Positions 1,964-10,949 of a DNA stretch of 64,000 bases are shown piece after piece (positions within the stretch are counted from its first letter, which is position 1; each line of letters begins with the position of its first letter). Below the pieces are notes generated by a model. That model saw nothing but the letters and a program-made list of their open reading frames with translations. It did no database searches and was not told the origin of the DNA. The position numbers were made by a program, and so were the translations under genes. Origin of the DNA: Mycobacterium sp. NBC_00419 (GTDB lineage Bacteria; Actinomycetota; Actinomycetes; Mycobacteriales; Mycobacteriaceae); contig NZ_CP107931.1 of the NCBI RefSeq assembly GCF_036023875.1, positions 2,418,001 to 2,482,000 on the forward strand, in the 5' to 3' direction.

Positions 1964-3811
<1,848 letters not shown>

Positions 3812-3874: not shown

Positions 3875-4261
3875 ATGGACTGGGGATCGACCTGGGATTT
3901 TCTCTGGCATTTCTTGATCATCTTCGCCTGGATCGCCTACCTGCTGGTGCTGTTCCAGATCCTGACCGACCTGTTCTGGCGCGACCACAAGACCTCAGGC
4001 TGGATCAAGGCGGTGTGGACGATCTTCCTGATCGTCTTCCCGTGGATCACCGCGCTGATCTACCTGATCGCGCGCGGTCAGGGCATGACGGAGCGCGCTC
4101 GGGAAGCCGCCCAGCAGGCCAAGAGCCAGACCGACGCCTACATCCGGGAGGCCGCGGGCCGCTCACCGGCTCAGGAGATCGAGCACGCCAAGCAGCTGCT
4201 GGATTCGGGTGCCATCAGCGCTGCCGAGTTCGAATCGCTCAAGGCCAAGGCACTCGCCTAG
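3875..4261 (+). CDS. small membrane protein with PLDc_N-like and SHOCT domains
   Basis: A 128-aa protein of unknown role. Two membrane segments are visible: about residues 9-33 (FLIIFAWIAYLLVLFQIL) and 47-68 (AVWTIFLIVFPWITALIYL). They resemble the phospholipase-D N-terminal module (PLDc_N), a membrane unit without catalytic motifs. After an Ala/Gln-rich helix, residues 100-128 carry a SHOCT-type short helical tail (EIEHAKQLLDSGAISAAEF), which usually mediates oligomerisation. The ATG start at 3875 has a clear GAGGAG nine bases upstream. It is separated from leuA by about 60 bp. Function cannot be inferred further. Confidence 0.82.
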   Translation: MDWGSTWDFLWHFLIIFAWIAYLLVLFQILTDLFWRDHKTSGWIKAVWTIFLIVFPWITALIYLIARGQGMTERAREAAQQAKSQTDAYIREAAGRSPAQEIEHAKQLLDSGAISAAEFESLKAKALA

Positions 4262-4268
4262 GCCATTG

Positions 4269-4310
4269 GCCCGGGACACGCCGGGTGTCGGCAACACGCC
4301 GTGCCCGGGC
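4269..4310 (+). terminator. possible terminator hairpin between the PLDc_N gene and jetA
   Basis: GCCCGGG (4269-4275) can pair with CCCGGGC (4304-4310), and further pairs are possible between CACG and CGTG inside. No U-run follows. It lies eight bases after the upstream stop, so it would insulate the condensin operon, but this is inferred from structure alone. Confidence 0.3.
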
Positions 4311-4382
4311 GATCGGTGGCGCCGCCGTCGCCTATCTTTGACGGGCCGATGACTACTCGCGGAAGGTAAGGAGACGGCCCAG

Positions 4383-5840
4383 GTGGACGACGTCGCCCTG
4401 TCCATCGCCGAGCTCGCACAATCCAACCGGGACATCCAGGCCTCACCCACCATCCGGCTGCTGGCCGCGCTCAACATGAGCATGTACGCCACCCTGATGG
4501 AGCGCCATCTCAGTGGCGGTGTGGCGGTGGAGACCGAACTGGTGGTCGCGCTCGAGCGTGACCTCGACGACCTCGACCGTCCCGAGGGTTTGTCGGGCCT
4601 GGCCCTGATCAAGGTGTGGGCGAGCCAGGGCTGGCTGCACCGGGTCGCCGACACCCGCAGCGGCTACGAGCGCAATCTGTGCTACCTGACTCAGGAAGCC
4701 CGCCGGGCGCTGGACTTCCTGCGCGGCATCCGCCGGCAGGACACCATCGCCACCGGCGGGTCCATCAACGGCATCGCCTCCCGGCTCAAGCAGGTCGCGA
4801 TCCGCGTCGGAAACGACCCGGATCGTATTCGCGCCGGGATCCAGGCGCAGATCGCCGCGTTGCAGGCCGAGCTCGACGACCTGGACCAGGGCGTCACCCG
4901 GGTGCATGACGACGTCAGCGACTCCTACGACGAAGCCCATGCGATCGCGCTGCAGATGGAGCGCATGATCACCGACATCGGCCAGTACGGGACGATGATC
5001 GAGCAGGCCACCGCGGCCCTCGACGAGCCGATCGACACCAACCTCGAGTACCGCGACCGGCAGCGCCAGATGTACGCCGACTACCAGGCGGCCTGGGACT
5101 CCCAGGGCCGTGACTCGCACCGCGCGTTCCTGGCGATGGTCAACGACCCCGATCAGCGCGCCGAGTTCGAGTCCGACGTGGCCGCGGTCGCCGACGCGTT
5201 GCCGTCGCTTGATCCGGCGCTGCGCAAGGTGATGACCGGGTTCTTCGAGCTGGTCGGCCAGCAGATCGACGAGGTGGAGCGCATTCAGCAGCGCTGTGCC
5301 CAGCGCGTGAAACGGTTCACCGCGTTCGGCACCCTGGAACAGAGCCGCGGGGTGGCCCGTCAGCTCAACACCGCCATCGCCGCCGCGCGGACGCTGCTCA
5401 AGGAGTCGCTGACCGATTCCCGGCTGGACCTCGAACTGCCGCTGGCCCGGCACACCATCAGCTCCGTGGGGGCGCTGAGCTTCCGGATCAGCGACCTGTC
5501 GGCGCCCAAGCCGGCGCAGGCCGCCGACAGCACCGTCGACCTGGCCAGCTTCGCCGCGCTGACCACCCAGGTCGACGCTCCCGGCATGTCGGAGATGATC
5601 AACTCCGCCGTCTCCCGCGGGCCGCTGTCGCTGCCCGACGCGGTGTCCATGCTCGACTCGGCCTATCTCGGCCACGTGATCGTGTTGTGGTCGTGGGCGC
5701 TCAAGCAACCGCGCACCGACGGCGCCGACGCGTCGACGACAGTCCGCTTCCAGTCCCTCGACGGGCGTGACCGCGAGATCGAGGTCCCGCTGCTGATGTT
5801 CACCGAACCGATCTCCACCCTGCAGGGAGCCGCGCAGTGA
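4383..5840 (+). CDS. jetA: condensin kleisin-like subunit JetA/MksF (DUF3375)
   Basis: First gene of a three-gene SMC-like operon. The 485-aa product matches the DUF3375 family in length and in its N-terminus (IAELAQSNRDIQASPTIRLL, then ERHLSGG), the kleisin/MksF partner that bridges the heads of the JetC ATPase. Residues 140-200 and 290-340 look coiled-coil (QIAALQAELDDLDQGVTRVH; DEVERIQQRCAQRVKRF). It has no enzymatic motif. In the Wadjet (JetABCD), MksBEFG and EptABCD systems this subunit takes part in loop extrusion on small circular DNA and plasmid clearance; without the nuclease, related MksBEF complexes act in chromosome organisation. The GTG start has AAGGAG nine bases upstream. The stop overlaps jetB by four bases (GTGA), indicating translational coupling. 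Confidence 0.85.
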   Translation: MDDVALSIAELAQSNRDIQASPTIRLLAALNMSMYATLMERHLSGGVAVETELVVALERDLDDLDRPEGLSGLALIKVWASQGWLHRVADTRSGYERNLCYLTQEARRALDFLRGIRRQDTIATGGSINGIASRLKQVAIRVGNDPDRIRAGIQAQIAALQAELDDLDQGVTRVHDDVSDSYDEAHAIALQMERMITDIGQYGTMIEQATAALDEPIDTNLEYRDRQRQMYADYQAAWDSQGRDSHRAFLAMVNDPDQRAEFESDVAAVADALPSLDPALRKVMTGFFELVGQQIDEVERIQQRCAQRVKRFTAFGTLEQSRGVARQLNTAIAAARTLLKESLTDSRLDLELPLARHTISSVGALSFRISDLSAPKPAQAADSTVDLASFAALTTQVDAPGMSEMINSAVSRGPLSLPDAVSMLDSAYLGHVIVLWSWALKQPRTDGADASTTVRFQSLDGRDREIEVPLLMFTEPISTLQGAAQ

Positions 5841-6526
5841 CCACCGAACCTGCCATCGACTTCTCGTCGCTGCCCCAGGTCAACAAGACCTCCCGGGTGC
5901 CGCAGGAGCGCAGGCCGCGGTTCGACGGCGACGTCGGCGAGCTGCCCGACCGGGCGTGCTGGGCGTTGCAGAACCTGCTGACCCGCCGCTACATCAGCGC
6001 CGAATCGGACCGCGAGCTCTACGGCTGGGTGGTCGAATACCGCGACCAGCTCAGTGTCCGGCTGTCCGAGCTGGATCTGCTGCTGCGTATCGTCGAGGCT
6101 GTCGAGGTCGCCTTCATCGAACAGGCTCGCTACGAATCGGCAAGGGGCGTCAAGCTTTTGCGTCGCGAGCCGCTCGGCACCTACGACTCGATCCTGGCGC
6201 TGCACCTGGCGCAGATGATGCGTGCGGCAAGCGACCATACCGTGCTGATCTCCCGCGACGAGATGCACGGGCTGTTCGCCGGGGTGCTCAACGACACCGA
6301 CCGCGACACCGTCACCTTCGCCGCCCGCGTCGACGGCGCGATCGCCCGTTTGGCGTCGCTGGAGATCCTGCGGCGCAGCCGCGACGACGAGGACAGCTAC
6401 ACCATCAGTCCGGTGATCACCGCGGTGATGACCGCATCGGTGATCACCGAGTTGCAGCAGCAGTTCGAACTGCTGCTCAGTGGTGGCGCGCCGCAAGAGC
6501 AGGAAGAGGTCGACGTCGATGCCTGA
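5837..6526 (+). CDS. jetB: condensin KITE-like subunit JetB/MksE (DUF4194)
   Basis: A 229-aa protein of the DUF4194 family, the tandem winged-helix (KITE) subunit that binds the JetA kleisin and contacts DNA. Recognisable stretches are [40 protein letters not shown], and the C-terminal winged-helix segment [20 protein letters not shown]. The GTG start overlaps the jetA stop (GTGA), and the 3' end overlaps jetC by eight bases, so all three subunits are likely made in fixed ratio from one mRNA. No catalytic residues are expected. The family call rests on length, position and sequence character together. Confidence 0.82.
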
Positions 6527-9500
6527 GCAGTTCCACCTGGCCCGCCTTCAGATCGTCAACTGGGGTGTGTTCGACGGATACCACGACATCGCGTTCACCG
6601 AAGGCGGTGCGCTGATCGCAGGCGCATCCGGAAGTGGCAAATCCTCACTGCTGGATGCCATTTCGTTGGGTTTCCTACCGTTCAACCGCCGCAACTTCAA
6701 TGCCTCCGGTGACCATTCGGCCGCCGGGTCCAATGCCGGGCGGCGCACCGTCGACAAGTACGTGCGCGGCGCCTGGGGCGAGCGCACCGACGGCGGCACC
6801 AGCCGGGTGATGTACCTCCGCGGCGAGGGCACGGCGTGGTCGGCGGTCGCGGTGACCTATGCCAGCAACACCGGCCGCAGCGTCACGGGACTGGTGCTCA
6901 AGTGGCTGGTCGGCGAGTCCCGCTCGGACTCCTCAAGCCGGTTCGTCCTCGCCGACGGCGACCGGGACATCGAAGAGGTATGCAACCGCTGGGCCGCAGG
7001 ACGTTTCGACAGCAATGTGTTCAAGGACGACAACTGGCGCTTCTCCACCAAGGTCGAGTCCCAGTACCTCGCCCAGCTGTACGCCACCATCGGCATCCGC
7101 GCCTCCGACGCCGCCCAGCAGCTGCTCGGCAAGGCCAAGTCGCTGAAAAGCGTTGGTGGACTTGAACAGTTCGTTCGCGAGTTCATGCTCGACGAACCGG
7201 AGAGCCTGGCCCGCCTGCCCGAGGCACTCAAGCAGATCGACCCGCTCGTCGAGGCCCGCGAACTGCTGGCCGTCGCACAGCGCAAGCGCAAGATCCTCGG
7301 CGATATCGAGGCCATCCAGCAGCGCTACGCCTCGGAGTCCTCGGATCTGGGCATCATCGACCTCGTCGACCTGCCGATGGTGCGGGCGTACTCCGACCAC
7401 GTACGCCTGGCGCAGTGCCCGGCGCAGATCGAGGCGCTCGATGGCACCATCGACCAGCTGGGCAACGAGTACGAAGACGTCACCCGTGCACTGAATCTTG
7501 CCAAGGCGGAATCGGATTCGCTCAACGCACAGATCAACGGGTCGAGTTCGACCGTCGGGCCGCTGCAGTCGCAGGTCGCTGGCGCCGAGGCACAGGCCGA
7601 GGAGGTGTCGCGACGCTGGGCCGCCTACGAGTCGATGGTCGAGGCCCAGGACCTCGACGTCCCCGACACCGCCGACGACTTCTGGAACCTGCGCGACGAT
7701 CTGACCAAGCAGGCCACCGAACTGCTGGCCCGGCTCGACCGCGGCCGCGAAGCGTCCACCGACGCCGAGTACGCCCAGAAGGTCGCGCGCATGGCCCGTG
7801 ACGAGGCCGCCAAGGAACTGCGCCGCGTCGAGCACGTCGGCTCGGCCCTGCCGGAGTCGGCCATCACGATGCGCGAAGAGATCTGCGCCGCAGCCGGTGT
7901 CGACCCCGCCGAGCTGCCCTACATCGCCGAGTTGCTGGACTTGCGGCCCGAGCAGAGCCGCTGGCGAGTCGCCGTCGAGAAGGTGCTGCGCGGCGTCGGG
8001 CTGCGGCTGCTGGTACCCGACCAGCACTACGCCGCGGTGCTGCGCTTCGTCAACGAGACCAACATGCGGGGCCGGCTGCAGTTGCACCATGTCCGGGCCT
8101 CGGCCAGTGGCCGCGAAGCGGAGCCGAACACGTTGGCGGGCAAGCTTTTCATCGTCGATCCCACCCATCCGTGCGCCGCGGAAGCCGCCGACGTCATCGC
8201 CGCAGCAGGTGACCACATCTGCGTCGACACCCCCGACGTGTTCCCGCGATTCCGGCGGGCGGTCACCGACACCGGGCTCTACAAGGACTCCGAACGGCTG
8301 GCCATCAAGGACGACCGGCGTGCGCTGCGGCCCTCGGAGTACATCTATCAGGGCGACGTCGGGACCAAGATCGACGCTCTGACAGTCGATCTCAGCACCG
8401 CCGAGGAGGACTACCGGCAGGCCCGCCGGGTCGCCGATGACATCGCGGCTGAACGCCAGCAGTGCCGTGACCGGGCGGCCGCCTACAAAGCGATCTGCGA
8501 GCAGTTCCCGCAGTGGAGCCACATCGACACCGAGACCGCCGACAAGCACGCCGACCGGCTGCGCGAGCAGTTCGAGATCCTGCTGGCCGACCATCCCAAC
8601 ATCGAGGCCCTCTCGGAGCGGGCCGAAGAGTGCTGGACCGAGATCCAGACTCTGATGACCCGCCGCGGGGCCATCCAGACCCGACGCGACGACCTCGACA
8701 TGCGACGCACCCGGCTGCTGGAGTTGCAGGAACGCCTGACTCCGGCGTTCGTCAGCGAGCCGTTGACGGAGTTGCTGGACCGCTACTCGGCGGATCTGCC
8801 GGTGGCGCTGGAGCTTCTCGACCCCGAACCGCACCGCGAGGCGTTGTTCACCGCGATCCGCCGGGAGCGCGAGCAGCTGCGGGAGAGCCGGCGCCGCTCG
8901 TACGACGAGCTGGCCCGGATTCTCAACACGTTCGACACCGCGTTCCCCGATGCGATCCCCAATGACAGCGACGTGTTCGACGAGCGGGTGCACGACTATG
9001 TGGCGCTGTGCCGGCACATCGACGAGCGCGAACTACCCGAGGCCTACGAGCGGATGATGCGTCTGGTCACCGAGCAGGCACCCGATGCGATCCTGACCCT
9101 GCACCGGGTGGCCGAGCAGGCGGCCCGCCGGATCAGCGATCAGATCACCAGGGTGAACACCGGTTTGGGTTCGGTGGAGTTCAACCGCGGCACCCGGCTG
9201 ACGCTGCGCGCCACGCCACGGCAGCTGGCCGCGGTGTCCGAGCTGACCGCGGTCGTCAAGGCCATCTCGGGTCGTATCGCCGAGGTGGGTCTCGGTGACA
9301 ACCAGGCGATCCTGGACCAGTACGCTGACATCATCCGGCTGCGAAACCGGTTGGCGTCCAACACTCCTGAGGATCGGGCGTGGACGCGTGACGCGCTGGA
9401 CGTGCGTAACCGGTTCACCTTCGACTGCGCCGAATGGGACATCCACAGCGACGAACTGATCAGGACGCACAGCAACGCCGGGGACAACTCCGGCGGTGAG

Positions 9501-9881
9501 CAGGAGAAGCTGATGGCGTTCTGTTTGGCGGGCGCGCTGAGCTTCAACCTGGCCAGCCCCGACAGTGTGGACAACCGGCCGATCTTCGCGCAGCTGATGC
9601 TGGATGAGGCGTTCTCGAAGTCGGACCCGCAGTTCGCCCAGCAGGCGCTGCAGGCGTTCCGCAAGTTCGGGTTCCAGCTCATCATCGTGGCCACCGTGCA
9701 GAACGCCACGACGATCCAGCCCTACATCGACAGCGTGGTGATGGTGTCCAAGACCGACGCGAACGGCCGCAACGCCCGGCCGGTGGCCACAGTGGCGACC
9801 AAGACGATCGCCGAGTTCTCCACGCTGCGCAAGCAGATGAGTTCGTCGACGCCCGCGGGCAAGGTTCCGGTCGAGGTCTGA
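6519..9881 (+). CDS. jetC: SMC-like ATPase JetC/MksB
   Basis: The motor of the condensin-like complex, 1120 aa from ATG 6519. A longer frame opens at 6480, but ATG 6519 has GGAAGAGG ten bases upstream and the usual short overlap with jetB. The Walker A motif GASGSGKSS is at residues 35-43. The ABC signature SGGEQEKLM is near residue 990 and Walker [12 protein letters not shown] near 1026. Between the heads lie long coiled coils and a compact middle segment near 440-620 that probably contains the hinge. ATP binding would close the head dimer and drive DNA loop formation together with JetA and JetB. Only six bases separate its stop from dnaQ on the other strand, so no jetD gene follows. Confidence 0.9.
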
Positions 9882-9887
9882 CGCGGC

Positions 9888-10874
9888 TCAGAACAGGGCG
9901 AACTGCTGGCCCTGGTCGACCGACGGCTCGAACGCGTCGATCCCGGTGCCGTTGGCCACCGATGTCACCGAGTCCATGAACTGGCGGTCGGAGACGGTCG
10001 GGACGCCCAGCTCGCGCGCCTGGTAGCCCTTGCCCTGTTCGGGCCGGGACTCATTGCAGATCACCAGTGACGTCTCGGGGTCGACCGCGTCGGTGTAGGC
10101 CAGGCCGGCGTGCAGGATGCGCTCGACGAGTTCTTCGTGCGTGCGGTTGACCTCGGCCGACAGCGCCACCCGCATGCCCTGCACCAATCGCCTGCCGTCG
10201 TAGCGGCCGGGGTTGAGGTACGGGCACGGCATCCGGGAGGCCAGCATCTTCAGCGGGCGCAGTTCTTCGTGGGTGATGCGGCCGTTCGGCCAGCGCCTGC
10301 GGTTGGCCGGCCGCACCGGCAGCCAGACGCCGTTGTCACGGGCACGCTGCAGCGCCGGGGTGAGCACCCGGGAGAGCACCAGCGCGTCGTCGAACGCGTC
10401 GTGGGCGCGGGTCTGGGCGACGTCCCAGTGCCGGGCCAGGGTCTCCAGCCGCAGGTTCTCCAGGCCCAGATCTAGCCGTCGGGCCAGTTCGACCGTGCAC
10501 ATGACGGTGTCGATCGGCAGCGCGGTGTCGGCCATCTCGGCCTCGGTGGTCAGGAATGCGTAGTCGAAGGCCACGTTGTGGGCCACCAGGGTGCGGCCGT
10601 GCAGCAGGTCGACGACGTCAGCCGCGATATCGCCGAAGGTGGGCTGGTCCTCGAGCATCTCGGCGGTCAGGCCGTGGATGTGGGTGGGGCCGGGGTCGAC
10701 GCCGGGGTTGAGCAGGCTGACCACCGAGTGTTCGACCCGGCCCTCGGGGTCCAGCGCGAGGGCGGCGAGGCTGATAACCCGGGCGTGACCTGGCCGAAAG
10801 CCGGTGGTCTCGACGTCGACGACGACCCAACCATCCCCCGGCTCGTGGGCTGGTCTGCCCCAGGTGTGGCTCAC
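9888..10874 (-). CDS. dnaQ: DnaQ-like 3'-5' exonuclease with BRCT domain
   Basis: The 328-aa length equals that of the M. tuberculosis epsilon-like protein Rv3711c. Residues 17-180 form a DEDDh exonuclease: VVVDVETTGF carries the first Asp and Glu, HNVAFDYAFL the second Asp, and HDAFDDA the His and last Asp. The C-terminal 90 residues resemble a BRCT domain (GMRVALSAEVNRTHEELVER and the ending DRQFMDSV). Despite the name, replication proofreading in mycobacteria is done by the PHP domain of DnaE1, so this protein is more likely an accessory or repair exonuclease. The frame is open much further upstream; GTG 10874 (VSHTWGRP) fits the known length and leaves an 88-bp divergent promoter region with murT. 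Confidence 0.9.
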   Translation of the reverse strand: MSHTWGRPAHEPGDGWVVVDVETTGFRPGHARVISLAALALDPEGRVEHSVVSLLNPGVDPGPTHIHGLTAEMLEDQPTFGDIAADVVDLLHGRTLVAHNVAFDYAFLTTEAEMADTALPIDTVMCTVELARRLDLGLENLRLETLARHWDVAQTRAHDAFDDALVLSRVLTPALQRARDNGVWLPVRPANRRRWPNGRITHEELRPLKMLASRMPCPYLNPGRYDGRRLVQGMRVALSAEVNRTHEELVERILHAGLAYTDAVDPETSLVICNESRPEQGKGYQARELGVPTVSDRQFMDSVTSVANGTGIDAFEPSVDQGQQFALF

Positions 10875-10949
10875 ACAGTCAGGATGGCACGCACCCCCGA
10901 CAGCACCGGGTACATCGAACCGTGTCGGGCCGCACACGTGCGCGCCGCA

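Follow-up and report, generated by a model that had tools for sequence, protein, structure and literature searches.

A JetABC/MksFEB operon without the JetD nuclease in Mycobacterium sp. NBC_00419 and its relatives

What becomes of a Wadjet-type machine when the nuclease that defines it is missing? A 64,000-nucleotide stretch of Mycobacterium sp. NBC_00419 (contig NZ_CP107931.1, positions 2,418,001 to 2,482,000; hereafter the window) raises this question, as it carries the three structural genes jetA, jetB and jetC of a Wadjet type I or MksFEB operon without the expected fourth gene, jetD (mksG). Our preferred reading, to which we give a probability of about 0.6, is that jetABC encodes a working nuclease-free MksFEB complex that arose from JetABCD after loss of JetD and would serve as an auxiliary stress condensin, probably damage-induced in most relatives. 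JetD-less jetABC is general among many mycobacteria and is no local accident of one genome.

The operon and its missing nuclease

The operon occupies three overlapping open reading frames (ORFs):

4383..5840, plus strand: jetA (mksF), kleisin, DUF3375; GTG start, 485 amino acids
5837..6526, plus strand: jetB (mksE), KITE subunit, DUF4194; 4-base overlap with jetA
6519..9881, plus strand: jetC (mksB), ATPase resembling structural maintenance of chromosomes (SMC) proteins; ATG at 6519, 1120 amino acids, 8-base overlap with jetB

The ORFs bear out the tight overlaps of 4 and 8 bases described in a first-pass annotation of the window; the mechanical ORF of jetC opens further upstream, at 6480. Hidden Markov model searches placed all three proteins in the families proposed there. 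Pfam matched JetA to DUF3375 (PF11855; 317 bits, 2.7e-94), JetB to DUF4194 (PF13835; 130 bits, 1.1e-37) and JetC to AAA_29 and SbcC_Walker_B, and PADLOC matched JetA1 (PDLC00459), JetB1 (PDLC00472) and JetC1 (PDLC00514) with 818, 376 and 2032 bits, respectively. Inspection of the JetC motifs confirmed that Walker A (GASGSGKS), the signature (SGGEQEK) and Walker B (LMLDEAF) are undamaged. The JetC family profile matched the solved E. coli JetC (8as8_A, 3e-75), and a 38-row JetA family profile matched the solved Wadjet JetA (8dk1_A, 6e-37); a 14-row JetA profile of near relatives had no match in the PDB, nor did JetB when compared by sequence. Using a JetA structure model with a mean predicted local distance difference test (pLDDT) score of 76 (an earlier model from 14 rows, mean pLDDT 55, was not used), we obtained 15 PDB matches below E 0.001, all of them Wadjet or MukBEF/MukEF chains; whole-chain TM-scores were low, and these fold matches rest on local similarity. 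jetABC is an intact Wadjet type I/MksFEB operon.

The host genome, a single contig of 5.615 Mb rated 100% complete, gave no match to JetD_C (PF09983) at E≤10 and none to the full JetD model PDLC00530 at E≤1, and an iterated JetD profile found nothing among the ORFs of the window's first 20 kb. Of 14 control genomes in the JetD_C search, 2 matched, those of Corynebacterium glutamicum and Bacillus subtilis, and one of these matches exceeded the cut-off. The PDLC00530 search took in 45 genomes: all five known to hold JetD scored 339-438 bits, and none of the 40 jetABC genomes picked for having no JetD_C match rose above noise (best, 19 bits). The absence of JetD, first noticed beside jetC, therefore holds genome-wide; these searches detect no hidden JetD in the host genome, and the earlier suggestion that the nuclease is encoded elsewhere finds no support. 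The annotation had also asked about further JetABC copies; a single JetA in the genome passes the cut-off. By gene content, the locus has the JetABC operon and the intact ATPase motifs of Wadjet type I and lacks JetD in both operon and genome, a composition (MksF, MksE and MksB without MksG) that matches MksBEF. Among the three options that the annotation had listed, a nuclease-free condensin fits best.

Comparing the window with its two closest carriers, we found ratios of nonsynonymous to synonymous substitution rates (dN/dS) of 0.045-0.096 for jetA, jetB and jetC, close to those of the flanking genes leuA (0.048-0.074) and dnaQ (0.074-0.111). All three ATPase motifs are kept in 124 of 127 JetC proteins scoring above 1500 bits, a set that counts a few genomes twice. 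Purifying selection on jetABC thus appears nearly as strong as on leuA, and the low dN/dS together with the kept ATPase motifs argues that the operon is not a relic.

Distribution and loss of JetD

In a genus sample of 396 genomes, DUF3375 was present in 239 and JetD_C in 68. A profile of window-type JetA gave 203 matches at E≤1e-20, from which 13 rows were removed by hand as JetD-linked or broken, leaving 190. JetD is absent from 164 of these 190 genomes and present in 26, where it presumably belongs to another Wadjet copy; the profile was built from JetD-less loci, which by construction directs the count to loci of this type, and in most genomes JetA was the only gene checked. Broken or partial JetA accounted for 6 of the 203 matches, which were set aside (JetA is split into two frames in G045 and lies in one frame in G196). 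Because jetA or jetC is split over at least two frames in L227 (G031), L193 (G164) and L225 (G045), the operon is evidently lost at times.

A named GTDB collection yielded 135 confirmed relatives, of which we retained 80. All 80 loci matched jetA, jetB and jetC (L105 ends 46 residues into jetC), and none had JetD in its flanks, which are short in 11 of the 80. The labels were Mycobacterium, Mycolicibacterium or Mycobacteriaceae in 79 cases. The remaining one, L103, is a contig labelled as an Acidobacteria metagenome-assembled genome; its JetA is 81% identical to that of the window, and it is probably a misbinned mycobacterial contig.

The nearest relatives with JetD beside jetC are L174, L175, L176, L178, L180 and L201. 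In a first tree of 52 JetC sequences, the window's clade, with 30 rows that include genera coded g9 and g31, was nested among JetD-bearing relatives. That tree, made without abscessus-like loci, had pointed to a single JetD loss in the wider clade to which the window belongs. The ten abscessus-like loci (L215-L224) also lack JetD beside jetC, and nine of the ten genomes lack it anywhere (G088 has one with another system). When three of them and outgroups were added in a second tree of 45 rows, the abscessus-like group fell with JetD-bearing sisters. Both trees were quick ones without bootstrap, in which the window's clade had support of 99 and 77, respectively. Approximately unbiased tests rejected trees that held window-type and abscessus-like loci together (p 3e-47) or all JetD-less loci together (p 2e-104), and thereby a single loss of JetD.

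The second tree requires three changes, a number reached equally by three losses and by one early loss with two later regains of JetD. However, when 20 JetD-bearing loci were compared, the JetD tree matched the JetC tree (r 0.97, 0 of 5000 permutations), which suggests that JetD was inherited with JetC and makes three losses the better reading. Most likely, then, JetD is ancestral and was lost at least three separate times; an early loss with two regains seems unlikely.

The operon also moves. The 93 loci with enough flanking genes represent about 19 neighbourhoods, and no flanking family is constant, the commonest (Exo_endo_phos) being counted 12 times over 98 loci; jetABC changes place as a three-gene unit. 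We found no plasmid or phage copies of the window type: 16 of 72,556 plasmid and 1 of 50,697 phage records matched, all below 60% identity. JetC and LeuA distances across 23 genomes correlated (r 0.58, 0 of 2000 permutations) but shared only 6 of 20 splits, suggesting that jetABC has been inherited mostly within lineages with some exchange or loss. One genome, G356 (L234, L262), groups with abscessus-like genomes by LeuA and with the window's clade by JetC, which suggests that its jetABC came by horizontal transfer. In three loci, other genes stand between jetA and jetB: SnoaL-like, RDD-family and unknown genes in L112 (11531-12947), the same three families in L119 (1698-3303) and a GNAT-like gene in L099 (11485-12159).

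Promoter, insertion site and an AlkZ-linked lineage

The sequence upstream of jetA differs between neighbourhoods except for one block, ATGTCGCCG-8-TATCTTGGA-CGTCCG. Its first part fits the RecA-independent promoter consensus tTGTCRgtg-8-TAnnnT, as quoted in PMC5656591; that promoter is assigned to PafBC in PMC6789036, and PMC11804915 describes activation of PafBC by single-stranded DNA. Of 89 window-type loci, 61 have TGTC-N12-TANNNT ahead of jetA, with 0.35 expected from shuffling; among other genes in the same loci, 12 of 1074 have it upstream. The other genes are the better control, as loose matches (≤3 mismatches) in the window numbered 64 against 31 expected from shuffles.

JetD-bearing mycobacterial Wadjet loci have the same promoter type: 28 of 34 (the 30 best DUF3375 matches and 4 others) carried it with ≤2 of 13 mismatches, compared with 1.2% in shuffles. 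In these loci (L006-L032 and related), it lies mostly 23-24 bases before the jetA start codon, and the mycobacterial JetABCD promoters are probably leaderless. Three of the six misses probably reflect a wrongly set start codon, because two loci of that type, L199 and L200, show 1 mismatch. With a weight matrix made from JetD-bearing loci only, 66 of the 89 window-type loci, but none of five JetD-bearing sister loci, exceeded the 99% shuffle level. As judged by these counts, which come from related loci and are not independent, the motif appears not to be ancestral in the clade and to have been kept or gained in two separate lineages. Because the PafBC-like promoter is found across different neighbourhoods, most window-type operons are likely to be under DNA-damage control; the window's own operon, with the following counterpart, is excepted:

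4316..4338, plus strand: degenerate counterpart of the PafBC-type promoter; −10 element TATCTT at 4333-4338

The consensus of the 61 loci further contains a near-palindromic block, GGAnCGTCCG, just after the −10 element, which could be the operator of a further regulator. Its counterpart in the window, at 4339-4348, matches poorly.

The operon stands in the window among resident genes:

1994..3811, plus strand: leuA, resident, landmark of the insertion site; ORF found in 30 of 30 genomes searched
3875..4261, plus strand: gene for a small membrane protein with PLDc_N and SHOCT (Pfam), resident; at the empty site in six relatives
4262..9887, no strand assigned: inserted segment, leader plus jetABC, from the stop of the SHOCT gene to the stop of dnaQ
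9888..10877 (about), minus strand: dnaQ, DEDDh exonuclease (PRK06063 family), resident; convergent with jetC; next to leuA in 14 of the 27 relatives whose leuA site has no jetABC

In the LeuA search of 30 genomes, 27 had no jetA at leuA; dnaQ lay within about 1.5 kb of leuA at 14 of these sites, 6 of which also had the SHOCT gene. Three genomes have jetABC between leuA and dnaQ, namely that of the window, G241 and G284 (Mycobacterium sp. M26, L064), and three empty sites have 1, 12 and 21 bases where the inserted segment stands. The proposal that the operon and its neighbour were inserted between leuA and dnaQ thus holds for jetABC with a leader of about 120 bases but fails for the neighbour: the order leuA-SHOCT-dnaQ occurs without jetABC in 6 of 27 relatives, so the SHOCT gene was not co-inserted, and it is ruled out as cargo of the system. 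Neither does dnaQ start six bases after jetC, as had been stated; it runs on the minus strand toward jetC, and what lies 6 bases past jetC is its stop. dnaQ adjoins jetABC in only 1 of the 80 named relatives. Because jetABC was inserted beside an already resident, convergent dnaQ, DnaQ is not its partner and is ruled out as the missing nuclease, a role for which it had been named as a candidate.

A parallel lineage of JetD-less operons, in genera coded g11, g17 and g19, carries a gene for an AlkZ-like DNA glycosylase that overlaps jetC or starts ≤7 bases from it:

L183:14767-15846, L184:14710-15891, L185:14664-15746 and L186:3580-4725: AlkZ-like genes after jetC

Three of these genes were scanned by Pfam and matched PF06224 with 263-267 bits; JetC of this type is 33% identical to that of the window. 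L187 (g30), of the same lineage, has no AlkZ-like gene after jetC. L183-L186 have one common neighbourhood, so the link between AlkZ and jetC could be simple co-inheritance, and a search of 13 genomes, among them that of the window, turned up AlkZ-like genes in all 13. Four further loci (L295-L298; genus g95, from another family of the class) have an AlkZ-type JetC with neither JetD nor AlkZ within the 1.5 kb examined, and are possibly a further nuclease-free branch.

Readings of the operon and known systems

In the reading that we prefer, JetC would bind ATP and dimerise, JetA (kleisin) and JetB (KITE) would serve to close the ring and to gate it, and DNA would be entrapped or extruded by the complex without being cut. 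In relatives with the PafBC-like promoter, single-stranded DNA or DNA damage would probably switch the operon on, and JetABC would then, as an auxiliary condensin, help to organise the chromosome under stress or restrain incoming circles without cleavage. The physiological role is what we infer from these data, as are loop extrusion, damage induction and the chromosomal target. Several observations weigh against this account. The dN/dS of jetABC rises to 0.12-0.26 against three more distant relatives (dS 0.47-0.69). The spread is patchy, with no DUF3375 match in 157 of the 396 genus genomes, and patchiness and relocation are more what one would expect of a defence gene than of a housekeeping condensin. 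An M. smegmatis triple deletion that includes the MukB-like MSMEG_0370 is described as still condensing DNA (PMC6135046). Moreover, the weight matrix passed only 2 of 9 L033-type, 0 of 10 abscessus-like, 0 of 11 g9/g31 and 0 of 5 AlkZ-type loci, so damage control does not extend to nuclease-free JetABC as a whole, and we reject the idea that JetD-less operons generally have a PafBC-type promoter. In the window, the counterpart departs from the motif at 4 of 13 positions, reads TGGC in the core where most relatives have TGTC, and is absent from the ≤3-mismatch matches (the copies in G241 and M26 have 2 mismatches each).

Some of these points would suit a non-cleaving anti-plasmid system, in which JetABC would recognise small circles through extrusion and, without cutting, restrict them through compaction, silencing or faulty segregation. 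Window-type JetABC descends closely from JetABCD and has a promoter type in common with the mycobacterial JetABCD, patchy spread and relocation are typical of defence genes, and EptC is described in PMC6135046 as acting on plasmid topology and interfering with plasmid segregation. Restriction by purified Wadjet is, however, described as cleavage by JetD (PMC10586767, PMC12647877), and a nuclease lost on several branches points to restriction having been abandoned, so we regard this alternative as unlikely. We think it improbable that another nuclease serves JetABC, in trans or from a neighbour (DnaQ, the Exo_endo_phos protein or the JetD of a second system), even if 26 of the 190 window-type genomes also hold JetD and the most frequent flanking family, Exo_endo_phos, has its gene directly after jetC in one neighbourhood. 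JetD is nowhere in the other 164, dnaQ is a resident, no flanking family is constant, and the Exo_endo_phos gene, present in 25 of 25 genomes searched (74-100% identity) whatever its neighbour, is ruled out as a substitute; the earlier suggestion of a substituting nuclease thus finds no backing in these searches for JetD and flanking genes. Least probable is a decaying remnant of a defence island, to which the broken or partial JetA in 6 of 203 matches and the degenerate promoter of the window could point: a dN/dS close to that of leuA contradicts decay, the ATPase motifs are kept almost throughout, and one JetD-less clade spans three genus codes.

The nuclease-free condensin that we favour bears on the interconversion of plasmid-cutting SMC machines and chromosome condensins. 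JetD-bearing and JetD-less forms occur in one genus with laboratory species, and because JetD was apparently lost more than once while JetABC was kept under strong selection, this interconversion is testable in near relatives. If the promoter reading is true, plasmid defence is linked to single-stranded-DNA sensing in mycobacteria. A wider scheme, which we offer tentatively, would place mycobacterial Wadjet-type SMC systems in the PafBC regulon. Damage or a conjugating plasmid would supply the single-stranded DNA that acts through PafBC to switch on JetABCD or its nuclease-free descendant. The descendant would be a damage-induced condensin left by repeated JetD loss, and a parallel lineage would have recruited the crosslink glycosylase AlkZ. 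JetABC might then be a reusable DNA-holding platform whose effector is a nuclease, a repair enzyme or none.

A nuclease-free MksBEF is already known in principle, and a review offers JetD loss as a route to one MksBEF (PMC10586767). A literature phrase search for a JetD-less Wadjet returned a review only, and among the matches listed PafBC was not linked to Wadjet or MksB, nor AlkZ to JetABC or condensins. New within these searches are the repeated loss of JetD, the mobility of the three genes as a unit, the shared promoter of PafBC type and a sister lineage linked to AlkZ.

Wadjet type I, MksBEFG and EptABCD (M. smegmatis, Corynebacterium glutamicum, E. coli and P. aeruginosa) have the same families, gene order and tight overlaps as the operon of the window, which differs in lacking the JetD/MksG nuclease. 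EptC is reported to restrict plasmids (PMC10123090, PMC10586767). In a comparison with canonical mycobacterial JetABCD loci we found no orthology: JetC of the window is 26-27% identical over long alignments to JetC of two of them, L044 and L047, and falls on a branch of the JetC tree separate from the canonical loci. By these comparisons, jetABC appears to be a paralogous lineage and not EptABCD with a deletion. PMC6135046 describes Smc and two MukB-like proteins, EptC and MSMEG_0370, in M. smegmatis. MSMEG_0370, like JetC of the window, is a mycobacterial MukB-like ATPase and probably belongs to the window's lineage; PMC6135046 presents it within that triple deletion, which has no DNA-condensation phenotype. 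JetABC-AlkZ operons (g11, g17 and g19) resemble that of the window in lacking JetD and differ in the glycosylase gene after jetC. A further parallel is MksBEF, which likewise has three subunits and no nuclease; in P. aeruginosa, combined loss of SMC, MksB and ParB is reported as lethal (PMC7485682). Window-type operons differ from it in that their losses of JetD are separate, within Actinomycetota, and in their often PafBC-type promoter. Because the defining nuclease is absent, we do not class the system as a Wadjet member; the machine probably works like an MksBEF condensin.

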